Positions 25,435 to 63,118 of a stretch of 64,000 nucleotides of DNA are shown piece by piece (the first letter of the stretch is position 1; every line of letters starts with the position of its first letter). Source of the stretch: Mariniflexile sp. TRM1-10. GTDB lineage: Bacteria; Bacteroidota; Bacteroidia; Flavobacteriales; Flavobacteriaceae. The stretch covers positions 37,501 through 101,500 of the forward strand of contig NZ_CP022985.1 in the NCBI RefSeq assembly GCF_003425985.1. Reading direction: 5' to 3'. The notes beneath the pieces were generated by a model, which searched no databases, was not told the DNA's origin, and saw only the letters and a list, made by a program, of their open reading frames with translations. A program made the position numbers and the translations under genes.

Positions 25435-25836
25435 CTATAAAATGTAATTAGCAATATTGGCTTTATTTTCAGAAAAAATGCCGTTGGTATCTACGAGTGT
25501 TAATGGCGATTTAAACCAAACCTCTATATACGCACGTGGTGTAATCACTTGAAACCTATCGGTAAACTGAATCACTCCATCTACTTGCACCATAGTGTTT
25601 ATATTCGCTTTTAAATAGTCGTAAATAGGCAAACTATTTGTAATAAAAGGCACTACATGTATATAAACATTGGGTTCTCCTTGGATAATTTTAGCAGTAG
25701 ATCCCGTAAGACCAAAAGCAGCATTGACTGTAGGAGCATCAAATTGATTGATTAGTGCATCCATAATGGCATTGCACATAGCATTTATGTTGTTATCGAC
25801 AAAAACCCCTTCAGTGGTATATAGATCGTAAGCCAT
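25435..25836 (-). CDS. Small tail protein, function unknown
   Basis: 133 residues, between tape measure (1-bp overlap) and the BACON-repeat tail protein (3-bp gap). It begins MAYDLYTTEGVFVDNNINAM; no motif is recognised. Gene order and tight coupling suggest a minor tail or baseplate component. Confidence 0.65.
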   Translation of the reverse strand: MAYDLYTTEGVFVDNNINAMCNAIMDALINQFDAPTVNAAFGLTGSTAKIIQGEPNVYIHVVPFITNSLPIYDYLKANINTMVQVDGVIQFTDRFQVITPRAYIEVWFKSPLTLVDTNGIFSENKANIANYIL

Positions 25837-28800
25837 TAGCGTTTATTTTTAAGTTTTAGTTTATTGTATTTATCGAGTTCTTCCTGAAGCTTTTTAATGT
25901 TTCGGAAGTTTTTGTCCATAACAGCGACAATACCGTCTTTTTCAATGAGCTCCAGTAATTGATTGGTACGGTTTAGGGTGGCGATAAGCAACGGATCTGG
26001 TGCTGCAGTCGTAGAGCTATTGTTAAACTGGGGTTGGGTGGTTTGGTTTTGTACATACCCACGCTCAAAGCCTTTTACACGTGCCAATTCGCTATACAGC
26101 GCTTGCTTTACATCTGGATTCATTTGTTTGAACGAACGGCCATCTATAATCATTTCGGGGAAGTTTTTACCACCTTCACCGGCAAGGAAGACCGTAGGTT
26201 TATCCACTTCGCCAGTTCTGGATTCACCGCCAAACGCTGCATTAAACACCTTGCCGTCTTGCTCTCGCTGTACGGGATAGTAGCCGCTTTCGAAACCTTT
26301 GGCGGGTAATGGTTGGGCAACTGCTATAGCAAGCTGTATAGCGCCTAACGCAGCGACAATTCCCGCCCATGGCACACCTAAAATAAGACCACCTTGCGCC
26401 AAAGCTTTAGAGACACCAACAGCCGTATTCATAATAATAGAAGCAATATTCATGGTTTTTTCACGCTTTGCCGCTTTATACTCCATTTCTGCTTTCTTCT
26501 TATCGGCAGCCTCGTCTAATGCTCTGATGGCATCGTTATATTGGCGTTCGTTTATATACCCAGAATCCAATAAACGCTTTTGTCTTTCCTTTTTCTTGTC
26601 GGTAGCCCGTTCAAATTGTTGCAGCTCTTTTTGTTGGTTTGCCGAAACGAATTGGTTGTACATGCTCCAGGCATTCATAAACGCACCAACAGCCATTTCG
26701 CCTGCTCTAATTTTTTGCTCTAGCGTTTCTAGCTTTTCAAATGTTTTTTCCCATTCATCTATTGAAAATCCTAAAACATCAACTTCACCGCCAAATTCAA
26801 CGTCTTTTTCGCCCCTCATGTAAGCAAGTAGCTTATTGATTTCGGATAAGGAAAGACCCAATTCTGAAAGCCTATCTTTAATTGCTTGAAGTTGTTCCGG
26901 TGTTAATAATTTGATATCAAAACCTTCAAATTGTGAGGTTTCAAGAACTTTGTTTACCTCTTTTACTAACGATTCTAAATTGGCTTTTTTATTCTCCAGT
27001 TCTTTTTTGTCAAATTCTTTCTGAAGTTTTTCTTTAGCCCTTTCGTTATCACCAAGAGCCGCTAACGCATTATTATGAGCTATTAATCGCTCTTGAGCTT
27101 CTCGCTCATATTGTGCCTGCTTAAGCTCTATTTGGTTTTGTAAACCTTTTTCCAGAATGGTGGCCTTACGAATTTCGTGTAGCTCGTTTTCGCTTTCTAT
27201 TTGGCTATTTACTGCCTTATTATGGGCAATATATGAGGCTTTAAGGTTTTCGTCCTTGGTTTGTTGGATAAGCTTTTGGCTTACTAATTTGTTTTGTAAG
27301 TCTTCAATTTTACGGAAATGATTAAAGTCCTCCAGAAGCATTTCTTTATCAAAGCCTTCCTGCATTAGCTGTAATCGAGCGTCTTCCGCATCGCGCTCTA
27401 GCTTTAATAATTCTTCAGCACGTTTTTTGCCGTCGTTTTTTTCTTTGTCGGTTAATGGTTTGGTAGGTATTGGCGGTGTTGAAACCGTTGATGTTGTATC
27501 TGTAGGCACTGGTGCATTATCTGCAAAAAACGCATCGGCATCTGCTTCAGAAAAATTGAGGTCTTTTAATTTTTCAGCAAGATCTAACCGTCTTTTTTCC
27601 TGTTCTTCTAATTGTTTTTGTATTGCTAAATATTCATCTGCTTTTTTTCTGGCTAATTTGATATCAGCATTCGCATCTATATCTGCTTGAGACGATTTGC
27701 CAGGATCTAATTCAGCACGAGCTTCTCTAGCTAATTTGTTTGCATCTTCAAAATTCTTTTTAGCATTTGGCAATAATTTTTTTAAACGTTCCTCCTCGTC
27801 TTTAACACCTTTAAGTCTGGAAACTAATGTTGCAGCTTCTTCATCGGCAGCTAAACGCTTTAATTTAATTTGCTGCCTAACAGCTTCGGTATTCAATTTT
27901 AAAGCACCTGTTTCGGCATCTATAGAAACAACCGAATCACCTAACCGATGTTGAAGTTGCAGTGTTATTTCATCTAAACGCTGCTTTGCTTCCGCCGTAG
28001 GATCTACACCATCAGCTGTTAAACTTTCGTATTCTTCAAGCAATTTTGAAGATTCTTCAGCAAGTTTACGATTTGCTTTAGAGGATTCGTAAGTGACTTT
28101 CGTTTCTTTTTCAAAAGCTTCACTAGTATCATCTACAACCCCTAATAAATCTGCAAAACCTCCTATAATGCTTTTAAGTATGTTATTAAATCCAGAAGAC
28201 GAAAAAGCGAGTGTCATTGCTTTTTTCACCTTATCAATAGTTCCTGCCAGGTTGTTGTTTTTTAAACCATATTCCTCAGTTAAAGAAGTTGCTTCAATCA
28301 ATGCTTTATTAGACATTTTTTGACGTTTCTCGAGCAACTCGGTATTACTTGATAAAGCAGAAAGCGCTGCCACACCACGCGCCCCACCAACCTCTAAGTC
28401 TTCTAGTTTTTCGGACATGATTGTCAAGCCATCGTTATTGCCGTTCAAGCCTTTTAAAAATAGAAGCATCGCCGCATTGGCATCTGTATTTAACAGGTTG
28501 CTAAATTCACCAACACTAACACCAGCAATTTTAGCATAGACATCTGCGTTCGAAAACATGTCTATCCATATTTTGTTCATAGCGGTTGCCGAAACTTCTA
28601 CAGATTGCCCGAGCTCATCAAAAGTGGCAGCATAGGCGATGTTATCTTCTGCAGATATTCGAGACTGTGTCGCCACACCCGCTTGCCTTTTCAGATAATC
28701 GACCAAGAACCCTGCTTGGTTAGCTCCTGAAGCTGACACTTCGTTAATGGCAGAACCAAGAGACAGCATCGAGTTTTTAAAGTCACGCCCCGTTTTTTCA

Positions 28801-29627
28801 CCTACTTTATAGATGTTTACCATTTTACCGACTTCGCGAATTTGCTCGGTACTCAAGTCGTCGCCCAATGCCACTTTCATCTGGTTGGCAACTTCCACGA
28901 AATCTTTAATATTTTTTGTGCCCTCGATACCTAAACGCCCTGCTTCTTCGGCAAGCTCCAGAAGCTCTATGCGGGCAGTACGGGTTTTCATTAACCCAAA
29001 GGATTTCGACAGCTCATCGACCTCTATTTTTGTTAGCCCAGTGGTTTTTTGAACATCGCTTTGTGCATCCGCCAGTTTACCATTGTAGTCTATCATTTTT
29101 TGAATAGACAGTACAACACCGGTTCCCATAGCGATTACCGACGCACCTAATGCCGCATATTTGCTAAAACCATTGGCGATGCTGCCTATAGATAGTTTTG
29201 TGGATTGAGCGTTGAGACGAAGTTCGTTCATGCGCGCGCTTACCTGCTTTAATTCTGCATCGAGCCGTTTATATTGGCCAGAACCAGGCACCATGTTACG
29301 AAGCTGTAGCCTTAATTGGTTGGCTTTAGACGATAGCTGCGCCATGGTAAGCCCTGTGATGCCTATTTCTTTTTGCAAGGCGTTCATCTGTGCCTTGTTT
29401 GACTTAATTACCTGGTTGTTTTGCTTTATTTCGGCAGATAGTCGCTTATACTCTTCAGTATTTTTTTTGCCTTGAGCGACCAAACGTGCCTGTTCGGCCT
29501 TTAACTCTTTATTGGTAGCGGTGAGTTTTCGGGTAGCATTTTCTAGCTCAAAGAGTTCTTTTTGTGCTTGATTACCATTTACGATAATCGAAAAACGCAT
29601 TTCTTCGTCTAGAATCTTCTTTCCCAT
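25836..29627 (-). CDS. Phage tail tape measure protein
   Basis: 1263 residues, sets tail length and fills the tail lumen. An N-terminal coiled coil (about 15-140) is followed by a hydrophobic stretch (ALGASVIAMGTGVVLSI, about 155-172) and a TP901-type tail measure core (GLTKIEVDELSKSFG, FDELGQSVEVSATAMNKIW, GARGVAALSALSSNTEL). Long central coiled coils (about 560-960) precede a second hydrophobic zone near 1070-1110 (GGLILGVPWAGIVAALGAI). Size suggests a siphovirus tail of roughly 190 nm at 1.5 A per residue. It begins 44 nt after a late-promoter-like motif (29672-29683), itself preceded by a terminator, so it starts its own transcription unit. Confidence 0.92.
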   Translation of the reverse strand: MGKKILDEEMRFSIIVNGNQAQKELFELENATRKLTATNKELKAEQARLVAQGKKNTEEYKRLSAEIKQNNQVIKSNKAQMNALQKEIGITGLTMAQLSSKANQLRLQLRNMVPGSGQYKRLDAELKQVSARMNELRLNAQSTKLSIGSIANGFSKYAALGASVIAMGTGVVLSIQKMIDYNGKLADAQSDVQKTTGLTKIEVDELSKSFGLMKTRTARIELLELAEEAGRLGIEGTKNIKDFVEVANQMKVALGDDLSTEQIREVGKMVNIYKVGEKTGRDFKNSMLSLGSAINEVSASGANQAGFLVDYLKRQAGVATQSRISAEDNIAYAATFDELGQSVEVSATAMNKIWIDMFSNADVYAKIAGVSVGEFSNLLNTDANAAMLLFLKGLNGNNDGLTIMSEKLEDLEVGGARGVAALSALSSNTELLEKRQKMSNKALIEATSLTEEYGLKNNNLAGTIDKVKKAMTLAFSSSGFNNILKSIIGGFADLLGVVDDTSEAFEKETKVTYESSKANRKLAEESSKLLEEYESLTADGVDPTAEAKQRLDEITLQLQHRLGDSVVSIDAETGALKLNTEAVRQQIKLKRLAADEEAATLVSRLKGVKDEEERLKKLLPNAKKNFEDANKLAREARAELDPGKSSQADIDANADIKLARKKADEYLAIQKQLEEQEKRRLDLAEKLKDLNFSEADADAFFADNAPVPTDTTSTVSTPPIPTKPLTDKEKNDGKKRAEELLKLERDAEDARLQLMQEGFDKEMLLEDFNHFRKIEDLQNKLVSQKLIQQTKDENLKASYIAHNKAVNSQIESENELHEIRKATILEKGLQNQIELKQAQYEREAQERLIAHNNALAALGDNERAKEKLQKEFDKKELENKKANLESLVKEVNKVLETSQFEGFDIKLLTPEQLQAIKDRLSELGLSLSEINKLLAYMRGEKDVEFGGEVDVLGFSIDEWEKTFEKLETLEQKIRAGEMAVGAFMNAWSMYNQFVSANQQKELQQFERATDKKKERQKRLLDSGYINERQYNDAIRALDEAADKKKAEMEYKAAKREKTMNIASIIMNTAVGVSKALAQGGLILGVPWAGIVAALGAIQLAIAVAQPLPAKGFESGYYPVQREQDGKVFNAAFGGESRTGEVDKPTVFLAGEGGKNFPEMIIDGRSFKQMNPDVKQALYSELARVKGFERGYVQNQTTQPQFNNSSTTAAPDPLLIATLNRTNQLLELIEKDGIVAVMDKNFRNIKKLQEELDKYNKLKLKNKR

Positions 29628-47851: not shown

Positions 47852-48736
47852 TTAATGATTTATACTTGTTTTTAATTCACTCAATACATGTGCTATATTA
47901 ATAGCTTGTTTAAACCCGCCAATGCCGTCTATCATCTTTAAACCAAAGGCTTTATCGGCGTCGAAAGTGGCACCGGTAAGCACTCCAGTTTCTTCTTTTA
48001 ATCCTGGTCTATTCTCTCTTACGGCTGCTTGAAATTTTCGGGCAATAGGTGCTAAATGTTCTTCACGGATTTTATCGTAATTGCCTTTTAAGGCTTCTTG
48101 GAACGCTAAATTTTTATGCTCACTTTCTTTTGGATAGATTTCATGAAACACATAACCTTGGGCTTCCCAGTGTTTTTGTGCGTCTACAAAACTGGAAACT
48201 ACACCTACGCTGCCGAAACGTGCAGAGACATCGTTGTCTGCCATTAAATAATCGCATACGCTTACGGCTGTCCAATAATGCAACGACATACAGGCGTCTG
48301 CCAATCCAACAATAGGTTTTGTTTTTGTTTTTGCGAACTGGATAAAAGGACCAATAGCACTTACAGCTCCTCCAGGACCATCAATATTTAAAATGGTGGC
48401 CTTAATATTTTTATTGTCTTCGGCTTTTTGTAAAGCAGCGACAATTTCATCTGCACCATAAGTGCAAAAATCGCCGTACTTTATAACGGCCCCTACCATA
48501 CTAACCATGGCAATAGAGCCTTCAGGGATAGAGATTCCCCCTTCTGCATTTGGTTTTAACTTGTTTCCGTTTTCGTCAAAAATGGTAAGAATGGACGATG
48601 GATTTGCGGCTTCAGGAAGATTAATAGGAAGCCCTTTCAATAGATTGCTAACCAAGGGCGCTGCACTGGATATAAAATTTACATCGAGTAGCCATTCACC
48701 ACGAAATAAATCGTTTAATAAGGGATTAACTTTCAT
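47852..48736 (-). CDS. S49 family head maturation protease
   Basis: 294 residues related to SppA/ClpP-like S49 peptidases used as prohead proteases. Visible are GPGGAVSAIGPF, then ADACMSLHYWTAVSVCDY (Ser of the active site) and FGSVGVVSSFVDAQKHWEAQGY, the family pattern. It would process the N-terminal scaffold part of the adjacent capsid protein during head maturation. It is 18 bp upstream of the capsid gene and starts 42 nt after a late motif. Confidence 0.85.
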   Translation of the reverse strand: MKVNPLLNDLFRGEWLLDVNFISSAAPLVSNLLKGLPINLPEAANPSSILTIFDENGNKLKPNAEGGISIPEGSIAMVSMVGAVIKYGDFCTYGADEIVAALQKAEDNKNIKATILNIDGPGGAVSAIGPFIQFAKTKTKPIVGLADACMSLHYWTAVSVCDYLMADNDVSARFGSVGVVSSFVDAQKHWEAQGYVFHEIYPKESEHKNLAFQEALKGNYDKIREEHLAPIARKFQAAVRENRPGLKEETGVLTGATFDADKAFGLKMIDGIGGFKQAINIAHVLSELKTSINH

Positions 48737-50594: not shown

Positions 50595-53543
50595 CTAGTA
50601 TAAAACTTCAGTATCTCCTACTCTATAAACAAAAGATACATTATCTACAGTAGGATTAATATTAGTAATTGCTCCAGTGTTAGTGCCAGTATGCACACCA
50701 ATACCAAATGCACCACTACTTGTAAAATCAATAGTTTGTGATGTTGCAGCAATAAACGTACAGTTTATAAACTTTGTGTATCCTCGATGTCCTAAGTACA
50801 TAAACAATCCTGTAGAAGTATCATCCATTATAAAGGTGCAATTATTGAACACTAAGTTTAAGTTTGCATCAAGTTTTGTTCTTAATAAAGCTTGTAGATT
50901 AGCTCCACCATATTGAGTGTTATTTAGATAACCTTCATTAGCATCTATTTCTATTGGAACTTTTACATCTATGTCTTTTACTTTAATAGTATTAAAAGCA
51001 CCTACTCCATCTGTTAACCATTGTGTTAATTCAAAATTAATGAAACCATTAATAACTCCATTTCTTATTCTAAAGTCTTTTTGTACGCCACTCCAAATTC
51101 TTAAACTTCCTTCTATTCTAAAATCCTCTAAATCTGCTGCATATTCAGCCCACCCTAAACGATGTAAATTACTAGGTTGAATTGATAATCCTGTCACTAC
51201 AGTTCCTTTTGAAGTTCCTTTATTGGCTAAAGTTGTGGTTCTATCAGCTCTTAGTCTGTTATTGCCAGTATCATTTATTACAATTGTTCTTAATGATTCG
51301 TCTGCAATAGCCCCGTGATTTGTAACTTTGTCGTTGAAGTCGTATCGGTTGTTATTCCAAACAATATTATTTGTATTAACAATTAAATCATCATTAACCC
51401 ATCCATCATTGAATTTGAATATATTACTATATACATATGTTAAACTATTTCCCCCTCCTGATTGTGAAGTAGTTTCACCAACTTTAGTACCATCATTTAT
51501 TGATGAATTTATTAAATAATTTCCATTAATTAATGAACCACCTTGTCTAGCATAAACCCTACTATAAAATAAATGGTTACCATAAAAATTCATATTAATG
51601 TCTAAATGAACATTTTTATGTTCATAAGTATTACCATATATTTTTAATTGTCTACCATATCCTGTGTCTAAAGCTAAACCTCTAGTATCATGAAATCTTG
51701 GATTCCATGAATTCTGTTTATGCAAGCAATTTGAAATAACACCATTAGACGCCCCTTTTACGATTATGTCACCATTTGCATTATTCCAAAAATGACCTTT
51801 ATCAATCATCCATCCCATAGGATGTTTATGGTCGTCTTCTATATCTAGAGCAAACTGAGGTTCTTGGCCTCCAACATCTCTTATAATAAAGTTCCTTATT
51901 GTAAAGTCTATTCCAGGATTAGAAATACCTTGGCGTCTAGTATGTGAAATTTCAAAATCTTCATACACGTTGCCTATTGCGTAACTTCTACTATTAACAA
52001 AATAGTAGAAATCAGAAATATTTGTACCGTTGTTTTCTACAAGTATTCTATACTTTGCAATAGCTGGTCTATCATCACCCATCACTCTAGGATAATAGCT
52101 TTCATAAGGTATTAAAGTTGGAGACTTTTCAATAAAATTATCATTAACATCATAATACAACATCCAATACTTATAATGCAATAAATCTACGGAAGCCATT
52201 GCATTAGGTGCAAAACTGAACCATTCATGTGGAGTTGGTAATGTTCTAGGAGTAGTTAAATAATAATAATCAGTATTTAAATTATCAGCTACGCCAAATT
52301 CATCAATATATCCATTAGTCAAATGAGCCGTTAATATATTAGACGTTCCATTACCCTGTTGTCCACCTGATATTCCGTCTCCATGAAACTCTGTCATTAC
52401 TATTCCTCCACCAATTTTATTAAAGAAAGTTTTTGAACTCATAAAAAAAGCATGCCCCCATTCATAAGGACTTTGAGTCAATGTAAATGCACTCCCTGTT
52501 GTACCTACATCTATTGCTATGGTAAAATCCACACCTTCTTTATAAAACACAACATTGTTTGCAGTAGCGGTAGCCACATATCCATCTGCTCCTAAATTAG
52601 TATTAATATAATCTGCTATTTCAGTAGCATTTGTATTTGCATTAGAAAGTGTTAATGGTATTACTTCAACTAATGTTTCAAGTGTTGTAATATCCTTATA
52701 TGGGTCAGGAACAGTTATTGTTAATGTAATAGAGGCTGCTGAAGTTGCTGCTGTACTTACAAGAATTTCTCTATTATAACGATGTCTATATCTATCACCT
52801 CTTAAAGTTCCACCAAGTACCTGACTTCCTCTTGTATTATAAAATATATAACGAGCAGTTGAAGGTAAATCATTTGTAATAGTTATAATTTCAACTCCTG
52901 CTTCATGTTTTACGGTTACGTAATCATTACCATTACCCACGAACCATGATACATCATTAGAAGTAGGATAAAAAGGACTATCTAATGCTGAAGGTTGAAC
53001 ACTTGCCCAATACTTACCAGTGTCTTTCTTATTCCAAACCAGAGTTCCTCCGACAGAATTAACAATATCTAATAAATTTTTGCCTACTTGATAATTATCT
53101 GTAGTGTTTAAATTATCATCAATTGCTCCAAAATTGGTAGCAACATAATGTTTTGTTTTAAACGTACCGCTTACCGTGGCGCTAAATAAATCAAATACAG
53201 CATCATCATTTATGAAACTAAATGAAGTGTTATTACCAACAAATGTTCCAACATTCAATACATTACCTCCATTAAGAAAAATAGTTATATTGGCTGGAGC
53301 TGTAAAAGAACCTCCAGCTAAATCAATGTCTGTTTGTATTTCCCATTTTTTATTAGCATTAGCAGCGTTAGGACTTGTAAAATCAGTTGGTGACGTAGGG
53401 ATAAAAACTTTGGTATTTAAACTGATATTGTCTGGAATATTTTTACGCAATATTTTAGTACCCTCTTGGGAAAAACCAAATGAGCTAATTAGCAGTACTA
53501 TAAAAAGTATTTTTTTCATTTTATTTATTTTGAAGTTATTCAT
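50595..53543 (-). CDS. Exported right-handed beta-helix tail-spike-like protein
   Basis: 982 residues (974 from Met9). The N-terminus MKKILFIVLLISSFGFSQ is a clear Sec signal peptide, unusual for a virion protein. The body is an extended beta-helix with many Asn/Gly turns (SNGVISNCLHKQNSWNPRF, NTYEHKNVHLDINMNFYGN). The start resembles tail-spike heads (IPDNISLNTKVFIPTSPTDF). It probably binds or cleaves host surface polysaccharide, or is displayed by the lysogen. The ATG overlaps the upstream 699-residue gene by 8 bp. Confidence 0.7.
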   Translation of the reverse strand: MNNFKINKMKKILFIVLLISSFGFSQEGTKILRKNIPDNISLNTKVFIPTSPTDFTSPNAANANKKWEIQTDIDLAGGSFTAPANITIFLNGGNVLNVGTFVGNNTSFSFINDDAVFDLFSATVSGTFKTKHYVATNFGAIDDNLNTTDNYQVGKNLLDIVNSVGGTLVWNKKDTGKYWASVQPSALDSPFYPTSNDVSWFVGNGNDYVTVKHEAGVEIITITNDLPSTARYIFYNTRGSQVLGGTLRGDRYRHRYNREILVSTAATSAASITLTITVPDPYKDITTLETLVEVIPLTLSNANTNATEIADYINTNLGADGYVATATANNVVFYKEGVDFTIAIDVGTTGSAFTLTQSPYEWGHAFFMSSKTFFNKIGGGIVMTEFHGDGISGGQQGNGTSNILTAHLTNGYIDEFGVADNLNTDYYYLTTPRTLPTPHEWFSFAPNAMASVDLLHYKYWMLYYDVNDNFIEKSPTLIPYESYYPRVMGDDRPAIAKYRILVENNGTNISDFYYFVNSRSYAIGNVYEDFEISHTRRQGISNPGIDFTIRNFIIRDVGGQEPQFALDIEDDHKHPMGWMIDKGHFWNNANGDIIVKGASNGVISNCLHKQNSWNPRFHDTRGLALDTGYGRQLKIYGNTYEHKNVHLDINMNFYGNHLFYSRVYARQGGSLINGNYLINSSINDGTKVGETTSQSGGGNSLTYVYSNIFKFNDGWVNDDLIVNTNNIVWNNNRYDFNDKVTNHGAIADESLRTIVINDTGNNRLRADRTTTLANKGTSKGTVVTGLSIQPSNLHRLGWAEYAADLEDFRIEGSLRIWSGVQKDFRIRNGVINGFINFELTQWLTDGVGAFNTIKVKDIDVKVPIEIDANEGYLNNTQYGGANLQALLRTKLDANLNLVFNNCTFIMDDTSTGLFMYLGHRGYTKFINCTFIAATSQTIDFTSSGAFGIGVHTGTNTGAITNINPTVDNVSFVYRVGDTEVLY

Positions 53544-55635
53544 ATAATTTTAGAGATAATGTTAATGGTTTGGCTGCGCTTGTTGGTTCCATGTTTGATA
53601 TTATAAGTCTATCTCCTTCTGGTAAAGAAAAAGATATACCAGTAATGTCTATAATTGTAGGAGAAAATGCTTTAACCGATATTGACGGACTTGTGTATAA
53701 AAGAGTATTTGTTTCCAAAGCCCCATCTACGGATGCAACAGTGGTATCAGCAGGAGCAGTTAACTCTACTTCATTTGCACCTGTAAATGATGCTATAGTA
53801 GTTGTTAATACAATACCACCTACTCCTGCTCCAACAACTCTTATTGTTTTCCCTACATCACCTGCTACAAACACATAAGTTGAAGTAGTTAATGTATTAT
53901 CAGCAGCCGTAATATTAAAATCCGCAGTTATAAACTCTTGATGTTTTTTTACGAAATATAAAGTAGTGGTAAAGGGCTGTTCTGCTATAATCGTACCCTT
54001 TATAGAGCTTATTGTTTTATTATCTGTTATTGGCAAACCTATACCTGTAGTTCCAGATAAATTCATAGCAGGAACATTAGTGGCTGATGTTTGGTAAAAT
54101 GCTGAACCAGTGTTATATTCAGGTGTTTTAGTGTAGTAGTATCTGCCGAATCCTGCTTGCATCAACCAACTACCCTCAATAACAGGTGCAGCACTTCCAC
54201 TAAATGCCGAAACATTACTATCATACCGATGCAATTCCCCTGCCGTGATAGTCGTTAAATAAGTTATAGTGCTTCCTGCCCAAGTATAATCAACTCCGAC
54301 TTTTTGAATTAATCCATTTACAAAAAATTGATGTGAATTTGTTATAGGATTTGGTAGCACCCACGTTGTCTCACCTCCTGTAGTTGTATATTCTTCTGGA
54401 TCTGGGCTTGCTCCATTTCCAATTATCAAAGCCGTATCTGCAGCATCTATATAAGCTTTAAGACTTCCTGCGCTCGCTATATTGGTTGATGTCGCAGAAG
54501 CTAGCGTGTTGTCGTTTATAAACGCTTTTGTTGTACCGTTACCTGTTAGAATATCATTTAAAGTAGATCCTATTTTAACGAATGAATTAGCATTTACATT
54601 TCCTTCTTTTTTAATAAAATAAGTAGTAGCCGAATTATTTTGAATGGTCAACAAATCATTAGTTGATGACGTTCCCCCATTTAATAAAATCCCTCTACCG
54701 TTTACGCTATTTATATCAAATCTAATTATTTGACCTGTACCACTATTTTCTCCATAGTATGAAGACCCGCTACCTGTAAGATTTGATTGAATTCCAAATC
54801 CAGCACCAGGTGTCGTTGTAGTCAATCCTATAAAATCATTAAAATGCTTAGTGGCTGTTATTGTTTCTTCAGTATTTAAAGTGGCGTAACTCCCAAAATC
54901 ACTAATATCAGCTTCAACAATCGGACGACTCTCCCAATCTACACCATCAGCCAATAATGCGTTTCTGTTTGTAGGGGTAGATGTGTTTATGTCTATTAGG
55001 TCGATTAGTTGGGTTGCGCCGCCTGAAATAGTGATATTTCCTGTATTATCAGCTAAAACACCGTTAACCGAAACAGGCAGCGTGGCAGTATCGCCGGGTA
55101 AAGAATTAATATCTGGAAGTCGATAATATGACTGAACCGTTAACAGGTTTGTTTTAAAATAAGCTCTATTTGTAGTTAATTTATTCTGTGAGTTAACACT
55201 AATACCATTGCCATCAACCGTTAACTGAGGTGTAATCGTAGGAGACCCTGGATTAATACCACTTATTGTGAAAACATTAGCCCCTGAAACATGTAATTGC
55301 TGTCCTGCGGAAGTCCAGTCGAACAAGTAATCACCTACTTGAATATCTTGAAACTGGTTATTTGCCCCTGTAAATAGGTTACTTGCTGAAAGTTGCGCAT
55401 ATCCTGATAAATCTGGCGTTGCGCCTAAAACTTCCCAACTGTCGCCGTCCCAATATTCCCAACGGTTGTTTAATTCGTCAAAAACCTGCCATCTTTTTGT
55501 ACTATCAAAAGAAACCAGAATTGCTTTTTTAGAAGCATTGGCTTCTTTATAACCTATACCATCAACTACTTGAGCTTGAGAAAAAACAACCGAGCTCAAC
55601 AAAAGTAAAATTATTATTAAACTGTATTTTTTCAT
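53536..55635 (-). CDS. Exported tail-fibre-like protein
   Basis: 699 residues. A Sec signal peptide (MKKYSLIIILLLLSSVVFSQ) precedes a fibre-like body: early RWQVFDELNNRWEYWDGDSW repeats, long beta stretches with GTSSTNDLLTIQNNSATTYF, and a region with FFVNGLIQKVGVDYTWAGST typical of phage fibre connectors. It is the first of two adjacent fibre-like genes that both carry signal peptides. Function by context only: adhesin or host-recognition fibre. Confidence 0.65.
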   Translation of the reverse strand: MKKYSLIIILLLLSSVVFSQAQVVDGIGYKEANASKKAILVSFDSTKRWQVFDELNNRWEYWDGDSWEVLGATPDLSGYAQLSASNLFTGANNQFQDIQVGDYLFDWTSAGQQLHVSGANVFTISGINPGSPTITPQLTVDGNGISVNSQNKLTTNRAYFKTNLLTVQSYYRLPDINSLPGDTATLPVSVNGVLADNTGNITISGGATQLIDLIDINTSTPTNRNALLADGVDWESRPIVEADISDFGSYATLNTEETITATKHFNDFIGLTTTTPGAGFGIQSNLTGSGSSYYGENSGTGQIIRFDINSVNGRGILLNGGTSSTNDLLTIQNNSATTYFIKKEGNVNANSFVKIGSTLNDILTGNGTTKAFINDNTLASATSTNIASAGSLKAYIDAADTALIIGNGASPDPEEYTTTGGETTWVLPNPITNSHQFFVNGLIQKVGVDYTWAGSTITYLTTITAGELHRYDSNVSAFSGSAAPVIEGSWLMQAGFGRYYYTKTPEYNTGSAFYQTSATNVPAMNLSGTTGIGLPITDNKTISSIKGTIIAEQPFTTTLYFVKKHQEFITADFNITAADNTLTTSTYVFVAGDVGKTIRVVGAGVGGIVLTTTIASFTGANEVELTAPADTTVASVDGALETNTLLYTSPSISVKAFSPTIIDITGISFSLPEGDRLIISNMEPTSAAKPLTLSLKLYE

Positions 55636-55811
55636 TATTCTTTTGGTTTTACATTAAAAATTTCTTTGTTTTTGTACATTAAAATCACTCCTCCATTGAG
55701 TGTTTCTAAAATATCTAAAGGTTGTTCTTCAACTATTTTTTTTTCTAGTTTTTTTACTTTTATCAGTAAATAAACAACCGATATAAACAATATTATCAAT
55801 ACGTATATCAT
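55635..55811 (-). CDS. Small membrane-anchored protein between fibre genes
   Basis: 58 residues: hydrophobic N-terminus MIYVLIILFISVVYLLIKV, then a polar coil (KKLEKKIVEEQPLDILETLN). Start (55811) and stop (55635) overlap the neighbours by ATGA and TAATG, which supports translation as part of the operon. Unknown function. Confidence 0.65.
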   Translation of the reverse strand: MIYVLIILFISVVYLLIKVKKLEKKIVEEQPLDILETLNGGVILMYKNKEIFNVKPKE

Positions 55812-56764
55812 AAAGCCGGTGCGTTTATTGCTAGTTTTATTTTTGTATCATCGTATAAGTCGTCTGGCAAGACAACCGGCAGGCTTATTACCTTACCTAC
55901 AACATAGGTATCGTCATCCCATCCGTTAAATGTGTTCCCTACTTCTATGGCGTTTTGATTAACGTTATCTTTTGTATCGAACCAAAAACCGCTTATTTTA
56001 GTAATTCCGGTATAAGGCACTTTAATTGATACATCGAGTTTAACTTCAATAACATCGTTTACAGAAACATCGTCTTTATCTATGGTACTTGCTACCGAAG
56101 CTTCGTAATATAAATTATCGACATTTGAAAAAGCAAAAGCCGTAACAGTGGCTATTAATGTTTTTTGTTTCGTGCGGTTAAATAGCACGAGCTCTATATT
56201 TTTGGTTGCTAAAATGCTATTGAACGCTTGAAGATGGGCCGTAAATACTTTATCAAACAATACTTTTGTTACCGCATCTGCAGCATATTCAAAACTTATT
56301 TTGGAAGTGGCAACGGTTTCTGCTAAAGCTTCAGATACAGCTTCGGTGTTGAAGGTTGTAAAACCAGTATTGTTTTGAAGCAAGGCCACTTCTGAAGCAC
56401 TAAGTTTTCGGTAGTTTATTAAGCTTGCTGTAGCTGGTCCTAAATATTCATAGTATGCATACCCTGCAACGACTGTTATATCTCCAGTAGCATCTACAAC
56501 GTGCTGCACCTTTCCGGGAGTTTGATTTGCCTGGTCTGCCAGCATTGCGGGAATGTCTGCATACGACGGATTTTCCACAAACTTTTCGTTAAGAAGTAAA
56601 TCGACTCCTAAAATGGCTTTTAATTCGGCCTTGCTTACCCGGTAACTAGATCCTGAAGGATGTTCGGTAAGATCGTTTTGGTCTACTACATAAAACACGA
56701 GGTTTTCGCTAGCCATTGCAGCGGTTAGGGGTTTCCTGTCGGTTAATCTTGCTTCGAAGCTCAT
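55808..56764 (-). CDS. Phage tail-fibre-region protein
   Basis: 318 residues, beta-rich (SFEARLTDRKPLTAAMASEN, KAELKAILGVDLLLNEKFV, NVDNLYYEASVASTIDKDD). It starts 44 nt after a late motif and precedes two exported fibre proteins. Probably a virion-attached fibre base; no specific domain is recognised. Confidence 0.6.
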   Translation of the reverse strand: MSFEARLTDRKPLTAAMASENLVFYVVDQNDLTEHPSGSSYRVSKAELKAILGVDLLLNEKFVENPSYADIPAMLADQANQTPGKVQHVVDATGDITVVAGYAYYEYLGPATASLINYRKLSASEVALLQNNTGFTTFNTEAVSEALAETVATSKISFEYAADAVTKVLFDKVFTAHLQAFNSILATKNIELVLFNRTKQKTLIATVTAFAFSNVDNLYYEASVASTIDKDDVSVNDVIEVKLDVSIKVPYTGITKISGFWFDTKDNVNQNAIEVGNTFNGWDDDTYVVGKVISLPVVLPDDLYDDTKIKLAINAPAL

Positions 56765-58033: not shown

Positions 58034-58184
58034 CTTGAACTTCTTGAACTATGGTGTTTTTTCTTGAACTCCGTTTTTAGAGTTCAAGAAGTTCAAGGAT
58101 TTTTAAAGGCAGTTCAAGAGTATTATTATACTGATATACAATATATTATAACTATATACTATACTATTCTTGAACTCTTGAACT
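58034..58184. repeat. Iteron-like cluster of CTTGAACT/AGTTCAAG
   Basis: Eight exact copies in 151 bp: CTTGAACT at 58034, 58043, 58063, 58169, 58177, and AGTTCAAG at 58081, 58090, 58111. Those at 58034/58043 and 58081/58090 face each other. A nearly pure A/T tract fills 58119-58168. The cluster lies between early genes and the late unit. It resembles a replication origin (iterons plus AT-rich unwinding region) or a multi-site regulator target. No gene is called in 57897-58393; a rightward ORF there looks spurious. Confidence 0.6.
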
Positions 58185-58722: not shown

Positions 58723-59019
58723 TTAAGTGAATTCGAAATATTCGTTGTCTTTTATGATGGTTGCTGTAAACGGGAATTTATCCTTTGGCACTAGTTCTAT
58801 TTGTTGCTGTAAAATTTTAGAACCCGTAAAAATGATATGCTTGGTCTGGTTCTTTTCTATCTGAAGGGTTAAGCGTTTGGTGCCTTCTTTTACAGTGGAT
58901 GCTTCGATTTTAAAATCGTGAACGGTAATAGGCACGTTTATTACACGGTCTATCTTTATTTTATCGCCTACGAAGGCGTTAAGGGTTGGCTTGATGTTGA
59001 AATTTTTAAATTCGTTCAT
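58723..59019 (-). CDS. DGR-linked small protein, unknown
   Basis: 98 residues, start overlapping the reverse transcriptase stop by 14 bp, so the two are translationally coupled. Beta-rich with basic patches (KIKIDRVINVPITVHDF, KRLTLQIEKNQTKHIIFTGS). It is not Avd-like (Avd is an all-helical, 120-130-residue pentamer subunit), but position and coupling make it the best candidate for an accessory factor of this DGR. No domain is recognised. Confidence 0.6.
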   Translation of the reverse strand: MNEFKNFNIKPTLNAFVGDKIKIDRVINVPITVHDFKIEASTVKEGTKRLTLQIEKNQTKHIIFTGSKILQQQIELVPKDKFPFTATIIKDNEYFEFT

Positions 59020-59968
59020 TTGGTAGTAATGTTTTTATTAAATGTTTGGCATCGCAGTGCTTTGTCCAACCTTTATATGAAGCGATGGAAGCTTCGTTTG
59101 GGTTATTCTTCAGCATTTTTGCGAAGTTTTTTTTGATTTGTTTTCTCAGTAGCGTGTGCGTGTGGTAGAACTTGTAACCTACAAAATCGATACCCCGAGC
59201 TTCAACAGGAAATACTTGATAGTTCTGCTTTACCTGAAGCTTCAAATTTAAGTTTAAATAGTGTTTAATTTCGTTTAAAAGTGAATGTAAATAATCTTTT
59301 GACGGTGCAGGAATCACCATGTCATCGGCATATCTGAAGTAATATTTAACGGCTTTGTCTTCCTTGATCCAATGGTCAAAGTATGACAAGTAAAAGTTTG
59401 CAAGATATTGGCTTAAGTAATTACCTATGGGCAATCCTTCGGCAGAATCAATTATTTCATCCAATAACCATAGTAAATCGGCATCCTTAAACTTTTTACG
59501 AAGCAGTTTTTTTAAACATTCGTGATTTACACTAGGGTAAAACTTCTTAATATCAAGCTTTAAGCAATAGGTGGTACCAGGAATATCCTTTAATGATTTT
59601 TTAACCGCTTTGGCCGCCGCGTGTATGCCTTTTCCTTTAATGCAGCTGTACGTGTCTGCAGTAAAGTTTGATACAAAAATTGGTTCGAGAACATTCATGA
59701 TCGCATGATGAACAATGCGGTCTGGAAAGTATGGTAACCGGTAAACTTGTCGTTCTTTTGGTTCAAAAACTGTGAAAATATCGTACTGTGATGTTTTATA
59801 TAATTTGTTTGCAAGCAGATCCTGAAGTATTAAAAAATTACCTTCTGGATTTTGATCAAACAATTGTACGCCATAAGTGTTTTGTTTGCCCTTGCGTGCT
59901 TTTTGGTCTGCAAGTCTCAGATTTTCAATACTGATTATTTTACTATATAAGTTTCCTTTTCGTTTCAT
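59006..59968 (-). CDS. DGR-type reverse transcriptase
   Basis: 320 residues of the diversity-generating retroelement RT class. RVYRLPYFPDRIVHHAI (about 76-91) is the fingers region; LKLDIKKFYP has the first catalytic Asp139; GLPIGNYLSQYLANFYL (about 178-194) is the motif 4 variant typical of DGR RTs (GxxxSQ); FRYADDM carries the catalytic Asp215 and Asp216; FVGYKFYH (262-269) is motif 7. Length and lack of extra domains match DGR RTs and exclude group II intron (no maturase/HNH) and retron. It lies 114 bp after the template repeat on the same strand. Confidence 0.93.
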   Translation of the reverse strand: MKRKGNLYSKIISIENLRLADQKARKGKQNTYGVQLFDQNPEGNFLILQDLLANKLYKTSQYDIFTVFEPKERQVYRLPYFPDRIVHHAIMNVLEPIFVSNFTADTYSCIKGKGIHAAAKAVKKSLKDIPGTTYCLKLDIKKFYPSVNHECLKKLLRKKFKDADLLWLLDEIIDSAEGLPIGNYLSQYLANFYLSYFDHWIKEDKAVKYYFRYADDMVIPAPSKDYLHSLLNEIKHYLNLNLKLQVKQNYQVFPVEARGIDFVGYKFYHTHTLLRKQIKKNFAKMLKNNPNEASIASYKGWTKHCDAKHLIKTLLPNERI

Positions 59969-59998
59969 TTTAGCCTTATTTTAGCTGGTCTCATTCTC

Positions 59999-60012
59999 CC
60001 GATAGCTATCGG
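59999..60012. repeat. 14-bp perfect palindrome in the TR-RT leader
   Basis: CCGATAGCTATCGG, between the template repeat and the RT start. The TR RNA would include it. A structural role in the template RNA is possible. Confidence 0.5.
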
Positions 60013-60081
60013 AATACCAAAGCCCTTTTAAAAAATTTGTCTTTTGCCCAGTGGCAAGGTCTGTGATGCAAGTAATAAGAT

Positions 60082-60154
60082 GGGCACTGACATTCGAATT
60101 CGAGTTCCAGTTATCGTAATCGTTGTACGAGAACCTGACGCCTGAAGGGGAACT
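60082..60154 (-). repeat. DGR template repeat (TR)
   Basis: 73 bp in the gap between the VR1 target gene and the RT gene, oriented like both VRs. Read on the minus strand it encodes in the VR frame SSPSGVRFSYNDYDNWNSNS and on, including five AAC or AAT codons, which are the usual diversifying codons of DGRs. It contains 18 adenines on that strand. All differences to VR1 (13) and VR2 (16) lie on those adenines; the remaining 55 positions are identical in all three. Confidence 0.95.
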
Positions 60155-60184
60155 ACAGCATAAGCATCACACCACCTGTATTTG

Positions 60185-60565
60185 TTATTTTTTTGCCGTT
60201 GGGCGTTCGTAAACCATTAGTTTTTTATATTGCTCTTTGCATTCTTCGGCAATGTATTCTGAAGCCTTTGGGAATTCAGAAACAAGGCGGGCACCGACAA
60301 CCGAATTCGAGTGCCAGCCATCGCAACCGTCGAACGAGAACCCGACGCCCGAAGGGGAACCCACCTTAAACCAATTTTCATGCTTGGATTGCTTTCTATT
60401 AGTATAGTCTGGTTGAAAATCGGGGTTTACGGCATCGTGCATCACAAAAAGTTGTGCCACGGCTTTTAAGGCTTCTATGTGCCTTTCGGGAACTCCTTTA
60501 ATTTCAATAGTATTAGGGTCTAAATTCTCTTGGGCAAACGCCTCCTTTAATGTTACTTTTTTCAT
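60185..60565 (-). CDS. DGR variable protein 1
   Basis: 126 residues, no signal peptide or membrane segment. The N-terminal helical part (ERHIEALKAVAQLFVMHDAV) precedes the variable segment (about 69-92; GSPSGVGFSFDGCDGWHSNS), and a C-terminal helical tail. Framework residues GSPSGVGFSF, D, W, S, S and VGAR are fixed by non-A bases or shared with VR2. The family resembles small phage proteins of YYPWF...GFxFxxxxYD...VGxRLCF type. The ligand is unknown. It lies 9 bp after variable protein 2. Confidence 0.9.
   Translation of the reverse strand: MKKVTLKEAFAQENLDPNTIEIKGVPERHIEALKAVAQLFVMHDAVNPDFQPDYTNRKQSKHENWFKVGSPSGVGFSFDGCDGWHSNSVVGARLVSEFPKASEYIAEECKEQYKKLMVYERPTAKK
60257..60281 (-). repeat. 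Hairpin downstream of VR1
   Basis: TTCTGAA, 11-nt loop, TTCAGAA, starting 7 bp beyond the 3' edge of VR1. DGRs of phage BPP-1 type have a hairpin or cruciform just downstream of the VR that stimulates target recognition. No comparable hairpin is obvious after VR2. Confidence 0.4.
60289..60361 (-). repeat. DGR variable repeat VR1
   Basis: 73 bp within variable protein 1. Differs from the TR at 13 of the 18 TR adenines and at none of the other 55 bases. The 3' edge is GC-rich (GGTGCCCGCC) against GTGCCCATCT in the TR, the expected IMH / IMH* contrast that marks where homing starts. Confidence 0.95.
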
Positions 60566-60574
60566 TGTGCTTGT

Positions 60575-61033
60575 TTAAATTGTTCTTGAATCTTTATATT
60601 GTGGAAGGAATTTTTTAACGGCATCCAACATGTTAGCCTTGGCGTTAGGACCGCAAAAAACTTGGCGGGCACCGACACCCGAAAGCGAGTGCCAGAAATC
60701 GAAAACGAAGAACGAGAACCCGACGCCCGAAGGGGAACCCATATTAAATATTGGATAGTACTTATCAGTTCCATCGGTAAAATTCGGCATCTTTCCTTCG
60801 TTGTAAGCTGATACCATTAAAAGCTCAAATTCATGGTGTTTGTGATAAGGATCAAAACCTTCCCATTTTCTGTTAAAGTCATCTTCAGTTGTTCCATTTA
60901 GTTTAAAAATGTCTTCAATACTGTTAATGCGTTCCTTGATGTCTTTTGGAAGTTCTTTAAAGGTTATTTCTCCCGTTTTTTTGTCGAAGCATGCTTCTTG
61001 TCCGTTTGGTGGAATAATTTTTAGTGTCTTCAT
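60575..61033 (-). CDS. DGR variable protein 2
   Basis: 152 residues, paralogue of variable protein 1 in the variable segment. The N-terminus starts MKTLKIIPPNGQEACFDKKT; then a helical zone with KWEGFDPYHKHHEFELLM and KYYPIFNMGSPS, typical of the small phage family with a YYPxF motif. The variable segment is about residues 99-122 (GFSFFVFDFWHSLSGVGARQ). Not a tail fibre and not secreted. Both target genes are adjacent and co-transcribed. Confidence 0.9.
   Translation of the reverse strand: MKTLKIIPPNGQEACFDKKTGEITFKELPKDIKERINSIEDIFKLNGTTEDDFNRKWEGFDPYHKHHEFELLMVSAYNEGKMPNFTDGTDKYYPIFNMGSPSGVGFSFFVFDFWHSLSGVGARQVFCGPNAKANMLDAVKKFLPQYKDSRTI
60667..60739 (-). repeat. DGR variable repeat VR2
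   Basis: 73 bp within variable protein 2. Differs from the TR at 16 of the 18 TR adenines and at none of the other 55 bases. Where both VRs changed, they often carry different bases (for example F/V/F/F instead of D/G/C/G in the variable codons), so they were diversified independently. Confidence 0.95.
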
Positions 61034-61710: not shown

Positions 61711-62133
61711 TTATTTTATTTTATTAATGATGGCGAGCATGTGAATCTCGTTTTTTTGGACCTGCACCATTTTATCTACTACATTACATATCGCGGTTGC
61801 TTGTGCTATATACTCAGGATTCTTTTTAATTTGTATCAAGGTATCTAGCAGCGTTTCTTTTATTACTTTATTCTCTTTGGTTGGTTCGAAAACCGCCAAC
61901 TCATTTTTGGGAACGTAAACAGCGGTAACATGTTTTTGTTTTACAACTGGATCTAACAACGATTGCAAAAAACCCTCTACTTCGCTCATTAAAAAATTAA
62001 GAGGGTTTGGGCAAAATACCACAACGTTGGCGCCTCGCACATCTTTATACTTTTCAATAGTTATGTTTTTGCCTTTATAGTTAAATTGTTTACCAACTAT
62101 GTTATCTAACTTCTGTTTTAATTCTGGACTCAT
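61711..62133 (-). CDS. Early-region phage protein, unknown
   Basis: 140 residues, MSPELKQKLDNIVGKQFNYK at the start; the C-terminal half is helical (ATAICNVVDKMVQVQKNEIH). Similar proteins occur in many Bacteroidota phages near replication genes; function unknown. It overlaps the HNH gene by 4 bp. Confidence 0.6.
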   Translation of the reverse strand: MSPELKQKLDNIVGKQFNYKGKNITIEKYKDVRGANVVVFCPNPLNFLMSEVEGFLQSLLDPVVKQKHVTAVYVPKNELAVFEPTKENKVIKETLLDTLIQIKKNPEYIAQATAICNVVDKMVQVQKNEIHMLAIINKIK

Positions 62134-62945
62134 TTTGTTGCGTTTTTGTATTTGTTAATTTGTCTTGTTACAGCTCCTTTAAGCTGAACCAGTTCTACTA
62201 TTTCTGGAGGGTAATTATGTATGGAATTGCGGCGCATAAGTTCGGCATCGCTTACGCGTTCTAAGTTTATTGGCTCGCAATTATGGGTGTCGCCGTCTTT
62301 AAAAATAATGTTAAACCCTTTTTTTAGTTTTTTGCCTGTGGCTGCCTCCCAATTATATATGTGCTTATATACCAACTTTCTTTTCCCTGGAGGCTTTATC
62401 ATTAAATATGACGTATTATTTCGATTATCATGTCTAACAACCTCAGAGCCGACCGGTAAAGTATTATGCGGACTATGGCCTGTTTTAAAACGCGTGGCTT
62501 TTGTTCGGGCTATAGCTTCTTTGCTCATATATTCATGCTGTTTTTTGCCCTTGTTTTTTGGTTCTTGCCCTTGTCTGTACATCCCTTTTTCTTTCCTGGC
62601 CTCTCGTAATTCTTTTGGAACTTCTAAGCCCATCGCTTTTAATCTTCCGGAGACGCCACAAAAACTCCTATCAAGTTTTTTGGCAATAGCTTTTACCGGC
62701 ATTTGTAAATAATAGTTCTTAATAAACAGATCTTCTTCCTTTGTAAAGGTGGTTCTGCCTTTCAAAGCTTGAGATCTAAATTTTATTTGCTGTTCTTTAG
62801 ACACGACAATACCATACGCTTTAAACACCCTTTTTACAACGGCAGTTGATACATTAAATCTTGCTGCCATTTTCTTTTCAGATAGCAAAAAGGCATTTTC
62901 AATAAAGTATTGTTCCATTTCTGGCGTGCATTTTTTGATAGGCAT
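62130..62945 (-). CDS. HNH endonuclease-like protein with N-terminal DNA-binding helices
   Basis: 271 residues from ATG 62945 (MPIKKCTPEMEQYFIENAFL); the frame opens at 62975. The N-terminal half has two helix-turn-helix-like repeats (SEKKMAARFNVSTAVVKRVF and MPVKAIAKKLDRSFCGVSGR). The C-terminal half reads KHIYNWEAATGKKLKKGFNI then IFKDGDTHNCEPINLERV, the HNH_3 pattern; a Phe stands where a central His is expected (I-I-F-K-D-G-D). It could be a homing-type or phage regulatory endonuclease, possibly inactive. Confidence 0.75.
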   Translation of the reverse strand: MPIKKCTPEMEQYFIENAFLLSEKKMAARFNVSTAVVKRVFKAYGIVVSKEQQIKFRSQALKGRTTFTKEEDLFIKNYYLQMPVKAIAKKLDRSFCGVSGRLKAMGLEVPKELREARKEKGMYRQGQEPKNKGKKQHEYMSKEAIARTKATRFKTGHSPHNTLPVGSEVVRHDNRNNTSYLMIKPPGKRKLVYKHIYNWEAATGKKLKKGFNIIFKDGDTHNCEPINLERVSDAELMRRNSIHNYPPEIVELVQLKGAVTRQINKYKNATK

Positions 62946-62956
62946 AATTATTTGGA

Positions 62957-63118
62957 TTAAAATTTTTTTCCACACACCTTACATTCTTCAATCATATCGA
63001 AATGATCTTGGGGTACGCAAGGTTTAATGGCTTGCGACGGGGTGCATTCTATTGGATTTCCATCGTCTATAGTGAAACATTCGGTGTTACCCGATATTTT
63101 TAAGTATTTTATGGCCAT
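62957..63118 (-). CDS. Small Cys-rich protein
   Basis: 53 residues from ATG 63118 (MAIKYLKISGNTECFTIDDG ... CKVCGKKF). Five cysteines include a CxxC pair (ECKVCGKK), so zinc binding is plausible. The coding frame overlaps the start of the following region by 32 bp with the 101-residue gene; unknown. Confidence 0.55.
   Translation of the reverse strand: MAIKYLKISGNTECFTIDDGNPIECTPSQAIKPCVPQDHFDMIEECKVCGKKF

Follow-up and report, generated by a model that had tools for sequence, protein, structure and literature searches.

The DNA analysed here (the window) is a stretch of 64,000 nucleotides (nt) from Mariniflexile sp. TRM1-10, part of a 4.86-Mb single-contig genome. On its minus strand lies a locus with the features of a diversity-generating retroelement (DGR): a reverse transcriptase (RT) gene, a template repeat (TR) and two neighbouring target genes, T1 and T2, each of which holds a variable repeat (VR1 and VR2, respectively). 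A structured RNA between TR and RT and a small gene of 98 amino acids (aa) that overlaps the RT gene also belong to the locus. The features are as follows.

58723..59019, minus strand: 98-aa gene, likely RT helper; overlaps the end of the RT gene by 14 nt and matches phrog_19665, of unknown function
59006..59968, minus strand: DGR reverse transcriptase, 320 aa; PF00078 (E 1.8e-19), phrog_1423 (E 7.1e-125), sequence motifs and RT tree
59967..60061, minus strand: RT-17 RNA (RF03020), structured spacer between TR and RT; Rfam match and covariation
60082..60154, minus strand: template repeat, 73 nt with 18 adenines
60185..60565, minus strand: target gene T1, 126 aa, without known domain; helical scaffold in the AlphaFold2 model, VR largely a low-confidence loop
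60289..60361, minus strand: variable repeat VR1, within T1; 13 of 13 substitutions at TR adenines
60575..61033, minus strand: target gene T2, 152 aa, without known domain; N-terminal beta-hairpin and helices in the AlphaFold2 model, with the VR as a loop of low confidence
60667..60739, minus strand: variable repeat VR2, within T2; 16 of 16 substitutions at TR adenines

An earlier note on this DNA had set the cassette at 59006..61033, which places these parts correctly but leaves out the 98-aa gene (58723-59019). The RT and the TR do lie close together, as it had described, with 113 bp rather than 114 bp between the RT start and the TR.

Reverse transcriptase and repeats

DGR-type RTs carry the motif [ILV]GxxxSQ. 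The RT frame of the window is open over 320 aa, with the DGR motifs noted previously present (IGNYLSQ at 181 and YADD at 213). It is the only PF00078 RT in the whole 4.86-Mb genome. Matches to the NCBIfam group II, Drt and retron models all fell below the model cut-offs, and PADLOC returned generic RT and DRT matches, which were given without cut-offs.

Related loci were collected by scanning viral contigs and GTDB genomes with the RT, retaining the best 80 of 538 loci (68-90% identity) and the best 80 of 141 loci (51-90% identity), respectively; within the latter 80, the nearest named genome was Yeosuana marina, with 90% RT identity. Including the window, the set comprised 161 loci with duplicates present, or 138 distinct loci at 95% RT DNA identity. 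The SQ motif, whose place in DGR RTs is a topic of PMC3521204, was found in 160 of 160 related RTs, and xxDD in 159 of 160.

Recounted on the minus strand, the repeats agreed base for base with the 13 substitutions in VR1 and 16 in VR2 reported earlier, all at the 18 TR adenines, while the remaining TR positions were unchanged (0 of 55 substituted in VR1 and in VR2). Were substitutions placed at random, the chance that all would fall on adenines is P = 1e-10 for VR1 and 3e-14 for VR2; so confined, they are not explained by ordinary divergence or duplication, in agreement with the earlier note. No fourth copy of the repeat was present in the window at up to 20 non-adenine mismatches, nor any beyond these three in the whole genome (53-nt core pattern, up to 3 mismatches). 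The match between VR1 and the TR extends 10 nt further with one non-adenine mismatch, and one non-adenine change relative to the TR, common to both VRs, lies just beyond the repeat. When TR adenines were allowed to change to any base in the target frame, no stop codon could be reached, and 9.3e9 protein variants were reachable out of 6.9e10 DNA variants.

In the viral set, which counts the window as a source beside the 80 viral loci, 77 of 81 sources have a TR with at least one VR: two VRs in 69, one in 4 and three in 4; the four sources lacking them reach merely 158-235 nt ahead of the RT. For the GTDB loci the corresponding figure was 74 of 80, with two VRs in 38, one in 22 and three in 14. 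Two adjacent targets on one TR, to which the earlier note had drawn attention, are thus present but, with two VRs in 69 of 81 sources, not special to this genome; DGRs with multiple VRs have been in print since 2012 (PMC3521204). Across 154 TR/VR pairs of the viral set, 2195 of 3228 adenine sites were changed versus 60 of 8846 non-adenine sites, a figure biased low because the repeat finder penalises non-adenine changes. Loci L130 and L136 each have a third VR, at a distance from the TR of 3.4 and 4.8 kb, respectively, and the frame that holds it in L130 resembles a further T-type gene. Broken-looking copies were also seen, namely an in-frame stop in the RT of L025 and a T1 frame in L078 that departs past the VR.

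Variation of the VRs was examined in pairs of loci with TRs at least 97% alike and upstream flanks at least 95% alike, giving 36 VR comparisons. No difference was seen in 28 of these; the other 8, not all of which are independent, differ at 86 of 175 adenine sites and 4 of 502 non-adenine sites. Three pairs have upstream flanks equal at 150 of 150 bases. Between L014 and L096 both VRs differ (10 of 20 and 11 of 20 adenine sites; 0 of 56 and 0 of 60 non-adenine sites), between L051 and L055 the VR differs at 11 of 24 adenine and 0 of 61 non-adenine sites, and between L159 and L160 at 15 of 29 and 0 of 87, respectively. At the protein level, a T2 homologue (P0001) equals T2 of the window except in VR residues, and all 24 compared VR residues can be reached from the window TR. 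VR diversity in related genomes, on which the earlier note had let its reading depend, is therefore present: relatives show a DGR type that is active, in which genomes whose flanks are identical carry VRs that differ at TR adenines only.

Two points weigh against extending this activity to the window itself. The evidence for VR variation comes from relatives and not from reads of the window strain's own copy, and seven changed TR adenines bear the identical base in VR1 and VR2, one of these shared substitutions being synonymous, in a third codon position (TCA to TCG). Seven shared bases are hardly to be expected from random mutagenesis alone; common ancestry, VR-to-VR copying or selection are possible sources. 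Since the two VRs are in this respect unlike independent random draws, the DGR might now be inactive, its frames still intact and its TR/VR differences old ones maintained by selection acting on the targets. We consider this improbable, given that the RT, the 98-aa gene and the spacer are intact and conserved, that no change has accumulated at the 55 non-adenine positions, that P0001 and window T2 differ in VR residues alone, and that relatives of the same type vary at adenine sites. Simple tandem duplication plus ordinary divergence, which would suit the paralogy of T1 and T2, is almost certainly not the origin of the three repeats, being excluded by the limitation of substitutions to TR adenines and opposed by the position of the TR, which is part of neither target frame and has T1 on one side and the RT on the other.

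Judged from its sequence, the locus is a DGR of known kind, complete in the parts tested; the earlier reading holds with respect to RT motifs, adjoining TR, two coding VRs with adenine-only substitution and VR variation in relatives. Taken as a whole, it is very probably best explained as the DGR of a likely prophage, in which one TR serves two neighbouring target genes at TR adenines. The RT would make adenine errors when copying the TR RNA, and the product would then be substituted for the corresponding segment of both neighbouring targets.

The tandem targets T1 and T2

Aligned by hhalign, the T1 and T2 families show homology across 125 columns (E 1.5e-58), and by this sequence comparison the two genes are tandem paralogues. 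Profiles were built from a T2 alignment (A3: the window, 33 of the 58 T2 homologues found at E up to 0.01, and 51 of 71 T2-length and 20 of 57 T1-length locus proteins), a T1 alignment (A4: the window and 55 of 57) and an alignment of long lectin-like targets (A5: 18 of 20). Pfam gave no match for window T1 or T2, and a single weak ZapA match across 105 members of the T1/T2 family. AlphaFold2 models, with a mean predicted local distance difference test score (pLDDT) of 82.9 for T1 and 86.2 for T2, comprise a helical scaffold with helices after the VR. A PDB search with both models returned nothing at E below 1, while Foldseek and VIA-align searches gave no lectin match and no useful fold for either; two viral models resemble T2 at E below 0.001, both of them uncharacterised proteins. 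A profile search of solved structures with T2 likewise returned nothing usable.

The commonest layout among the related loci is T2-T1-TR-RT with small targets. Among the more distant RTs (mostly 51-66% identity), many loci have a single VR, carried by a long lectin-like target; frames of this type longer than 400 aa number 20, of which 19 are 433-529 aa. The label lectin-like was adopted because homologues in crAss phage are annotated as similar to sulfatase or major tropism determinant; Pfam found no match in the lectin-like targets of L145 and L163. For an RT tree, 162 sequences were dereplicated to 130, with L025 excluded for its in-frame stop. Of 103 small-target RTs, 100 fall in one group (SH-aLRT 91, under the 95 mark), whereas L158 and L162, also with small targets, are placed inside the lectin-type group; L136 falls elsewhere, together with hankyphage on a long branch of uncertain placement. 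From these stray placements, target type likely switched during the history of the RT.

These long targets bear on whether T1 and T2 are themselves reduced C-type lectins, with strands that AlphaFold2 left unplaced and a scaffold that is nothing new. T2 matches the lectin-like targets over 34 columns within the VR (hhalign E 5e-7, probability 92.5), a stretch ending in VGSRLCF, and much of the VR loop is modelled at pLDDT under 50 in both T1 and T2; each of these observations counts against a non-lectin scaffold. A large survey, moreover, ties annotated VR regions to C-lectin folds (PMC8144416). Set against this, hhalign detected no similarity between T2 and the lectin-like targets outside the VR, the models of the 152-aa and 126-aa proteins show helices at the mean pLDDT given above, and PDB held no match below the E threshold of 1. 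We regard reduced lectins as quite possible, though on balance doubtful.

In Sphingobacterium griseoflavum (L155:4928-5788), T2 and T1 are fused into one 286-aa frame that holds both VRs. Together with the recurrent tandem pairing, this fusion suggests that T1 and T2 may work together. Acting as one unit, they would expose a pair of variable loops at the surface of the phage or cell.

The 98-aa gene and the spacer RNA

The family of the 98-aa protein was found in 146 of 161 loci by profile and in 159 after iteration, or 136 of 138 distinct loci; the two loci without a match are L007, whose contig ends 69 bp on, and L135. For the family alignment (A6), the window and 26 of 125 profile matches were used, the window itself being counted among the latter. 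Of 132 small-target loci, 129 have the gene immediately 3' of the RT (for L123, inside the RT frame). An overlap with the RT was counted in 127 of 128 cases from the first start codon of each frame, a count that may overstate and is not relied upon. In 12 of 21 lectin-like loci the gene sits between target and TR, which is the position of avd in Bordetella phage BPP-1. In hankyphage the family makes up about residues 327-434 of the RT (E 3.5e-18), with 34% identity to the window protein over 92 aa (E 2e-9), and it is likewise within the RT frame in BKO1-TP3 and BT-TP2. In the one LoVEphage record examined, of six similar ones, the coding sequence that holds it starts 144 nt after the end of an RT-like coding sequence. 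A phage collection held 29 records matching the family, most of them hankyphage copies: 21 annotated as RT, 2 unannotated and 6 LoVEphage-like entries labelled 'hypothetical protein'. Searches seeded with the 98-aa protein found an adjoining RT in 13 of 13 viral loci, 5 of them on contigs already in the RT set, and in 4 of 4 places, the own genome included, among 395 genomes (up to 12 candidates scored per genome, and up to 10 in the RT-17 search described below). A profile search of solved structures with the protein gave nothing usable.

Several lectin-like loci have a further gene of 118-138 aa following the RT (L145:6983-7345, phrog_11557; hankyphage BK010646 40044-40529), and annotated Bacteroides phages carry a DUF4376 gene at the position following the RT.

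The usual DGR helper, Avd, was sought in the records of 44 of the 80 viral loci and in the own genome, with BPP-1 as positive control. PF05635 has been likened to Avd (PMC10053308); since the Avd of BPP-1 matches PF22296 (bAvd; E 2.2e-37) and not PF05635, the Avd search was redone with PF22296, on which the conclusion rests. In the own genome no bAvd match exceeded the cut-off and the 5 weaker matches all lay outside the window; none was found in hankyphage p00, nor near the DGR in the 44 viral records. The sole match in those records lies about 29 kb from the DGR of L077 (G467:C1:4962-5276, E 1.6e-28) and possibly marks a second DGR. PF05635 gave 0 matches over the cut-off in the 44 records and one weak match (E 8.5e-4); this family, that of the 23S rRNA intervening-sequence protein, has 22 matches in the own genome and 0 in the window. 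The 98-aa protein showed no BLASTP similarity to BPP-1 Avd (E 9.5), and members of its family did not match the bAvd profile. By the bAvd search, with no match near the DGR, the locus does not count as an Avd-bearing DGR.

MSL (MutS-like) and HRDC proteins are known DGR accessories as well (PMC10053308). MSL was rejected, PF01624 giving no match in 27 members of the 98-aa family (E up to 0.5) or in 7 more and 2 fused domains (E up to 1); hhalign against flavobacterial MutS domain I, with a MutS profile of low diversity, gave a probability of 0.2. HRDC (PF00570) was not matched in the scanned members. According to PMC7290462, about a quarter of DGRs are without an accessory-gene homologue, and DGRs with lineage-3 RTs are without avd.

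The 98-aa protein is likely an RT helper, unlike the usual helper in sequence, and would partner the RT as Avd does in BPP-1. Several observations weigh against this assignment. The gene lies one gene or more past the RT in 9 of 21 lectin-like loci. Members in the avd position are distant: a profile of RT-adjacent members recovers 11 of the 13 (E 3.2e-4 or better) and misses 2, with an hhalign probability of 94.7 between the two groups. Of 3 Crassvirales DGR loci examined, none had a match less than 3 kb from the RT; a diverged fused helper in the RT tail of crAss phage cr55_1 was considered and rejected, the tail scoring no better than shuffles (rank 3 of 501). The Crassvirales loci would be accounted for if the gene were no RT partner but an ordinary one of the phage, coding perhaps for a single-strand binding or tail-side protein, that neighbours the RT by chance within an operon. 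Its Pfam matches, all weak and below cut-off, would fit too, as would the reach of the helper-seeded searches to close relatives only, with 5 of the 13 viral loci on contigs that the RT had already found. Such chance association is nevertheless unlikely in view of the gene's presence in 159 of 161 RT loci (136 of 138 once RTs at least 95% alike in DNA are merged), the adjoining RT at every helper-seeded viral and genome locus, the 21 of 29 phage records that carry the family under an RT annotation, and its place in the RT frame of hankyphage, BKO1-TP3 and BT-TP2.

The spacer between TR and RT matches RT-17 at 44.0 bits against a gathering score of 40.4, and is thereby a member of that Rfam family. 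In an alignment (A7) of the window with 31 of 101 dereplicated spacers (32 in total), 11 pairs in 3 helices were 92.3% paired, with 84 two-sided changes. The covariation score was reached by 0 of 500 shuffles and the number of pairs changed on both sides by 2 of 500, while slid versions of the helices were 22-52% paired. The claim of spacer conservation rests on this alignment rather than on Rfam matches: among 13 relatives only L006 reached the gathering score. Across the 395 genomes RT-17 was found in 4 places (own included), each preceding an RT with the 98-aa helper; two are below the gathering score, and the three non-own genomes share one genus. No paper on RT-17 (RF03020) was found in the literature searched, and the Rfam entry gives solely the name RT-17 RNA and the type sRNA. 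In BPP-1, the spacer recruits RT-Avd and primes complementary DNA (cDNA; PMC12875486). By analogy, the TR transcript would continue into the structured RT-17 spacer, which would recruit the RT and prime cDNA synthesis at the 3' end of the TR; RT-17 RNA would here be the DGR spacer, with a probable recruiting and priming role.

With rather more reserve than confidence, we propose that the locus represents a branch of Bacteroidota DGRs without Avd, in which the 98-aa family may be the RT partner (as a separate protein, in the avd position or fused to the RT) and the element may diversify a two-chain, non-lectin T1/T2 binder.

Genomic setting and comparison with known systems

Phage genes lie around the cassette, and on this ground the element is taken to reside, likely, in a prophage:

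25836-29627: minor tail protein
47852-48736: head maturation protease
62130-62975: HNH gene

A 1096-aa protein that runs beyond the window end resembles a primase/helicase by eye (no search was made). Three large open reading frames at 50595-56764 (318, 699 and 982 aa), for which PHROG gave no more than a weak pectin-lyase-like match, form a candidate tail-fibre region adjoining the DGR. At 58034-58119, about 900 nt past the RT, there are nested inverted repeats with a perfect 17-nt arm pair.

In the literature searched, no description was found of the 98-aa family, of the tandem small targets or of a placed spacer RNA. The RT-17 spacer of the window reaches the gathering score of a family whose Rfam entry itself gives no DGR placement; setting RT-17 as a DGR spacer would supply a likely role for it. 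Bordetella phage BPP-1 (brt, TR, avd, mtd) resembles the window in having the TR shortly upstream of the RT and a VR in a coding target, and both adenine-targeted mutation and a structured TR-RT spacer are in print for it (PMC12875486). It differs in the Avd between target and TR and in its single target, mtd, whereas the window has no bAvd match near the DGR, a 98-aa gene overlapping the RT and two small targets. The 98-aa family is also unlike the MSL and HRDC accessories, with no PF01624 or PF00570 match in scanned members. For the question of Avd-less DGRs, the conserved protein linked to the RT here, and built into it elsewhere, offers a concrete gene and domain.

In the tentaclin phages nd4 and nd12 and in Quimbyvirus, as in the window, one DGR serves more than one VR (PMC10743442, PMC8008677); their targets are C-lectin proteins, in contrast to the two small tandem paralogues without lectin match described here. 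Should T1 and T2 prove not to be lectins, DGR variation would be carried by a scaffold other than the C-lectin as well. If they pair, two independently rewritten loops from one template would share one binding face, and the repertoire would be squared.

The 98-aa family is shared with hankyphage (Bacteroides phage p00), which is likewise without bAvd and has the family as the C-terminal domain of its RT; a small hankyphage 'Avd' was named from its isoelectric point and molecular weight (PMC6199706). Unlike the window, hankyphage has one large target with a lectin domain and 117-bp repeats. Activity of its DGR has been reported (PMC12135933), and hankyphage records bearing the names of strains in that report (jmh42, jmh43, jmh47 and jmh51) carry the 98-aa domain. 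Hankyphage is thus a phage in which DGR activity can already be read and which carries the 98-aa domain within its RT.

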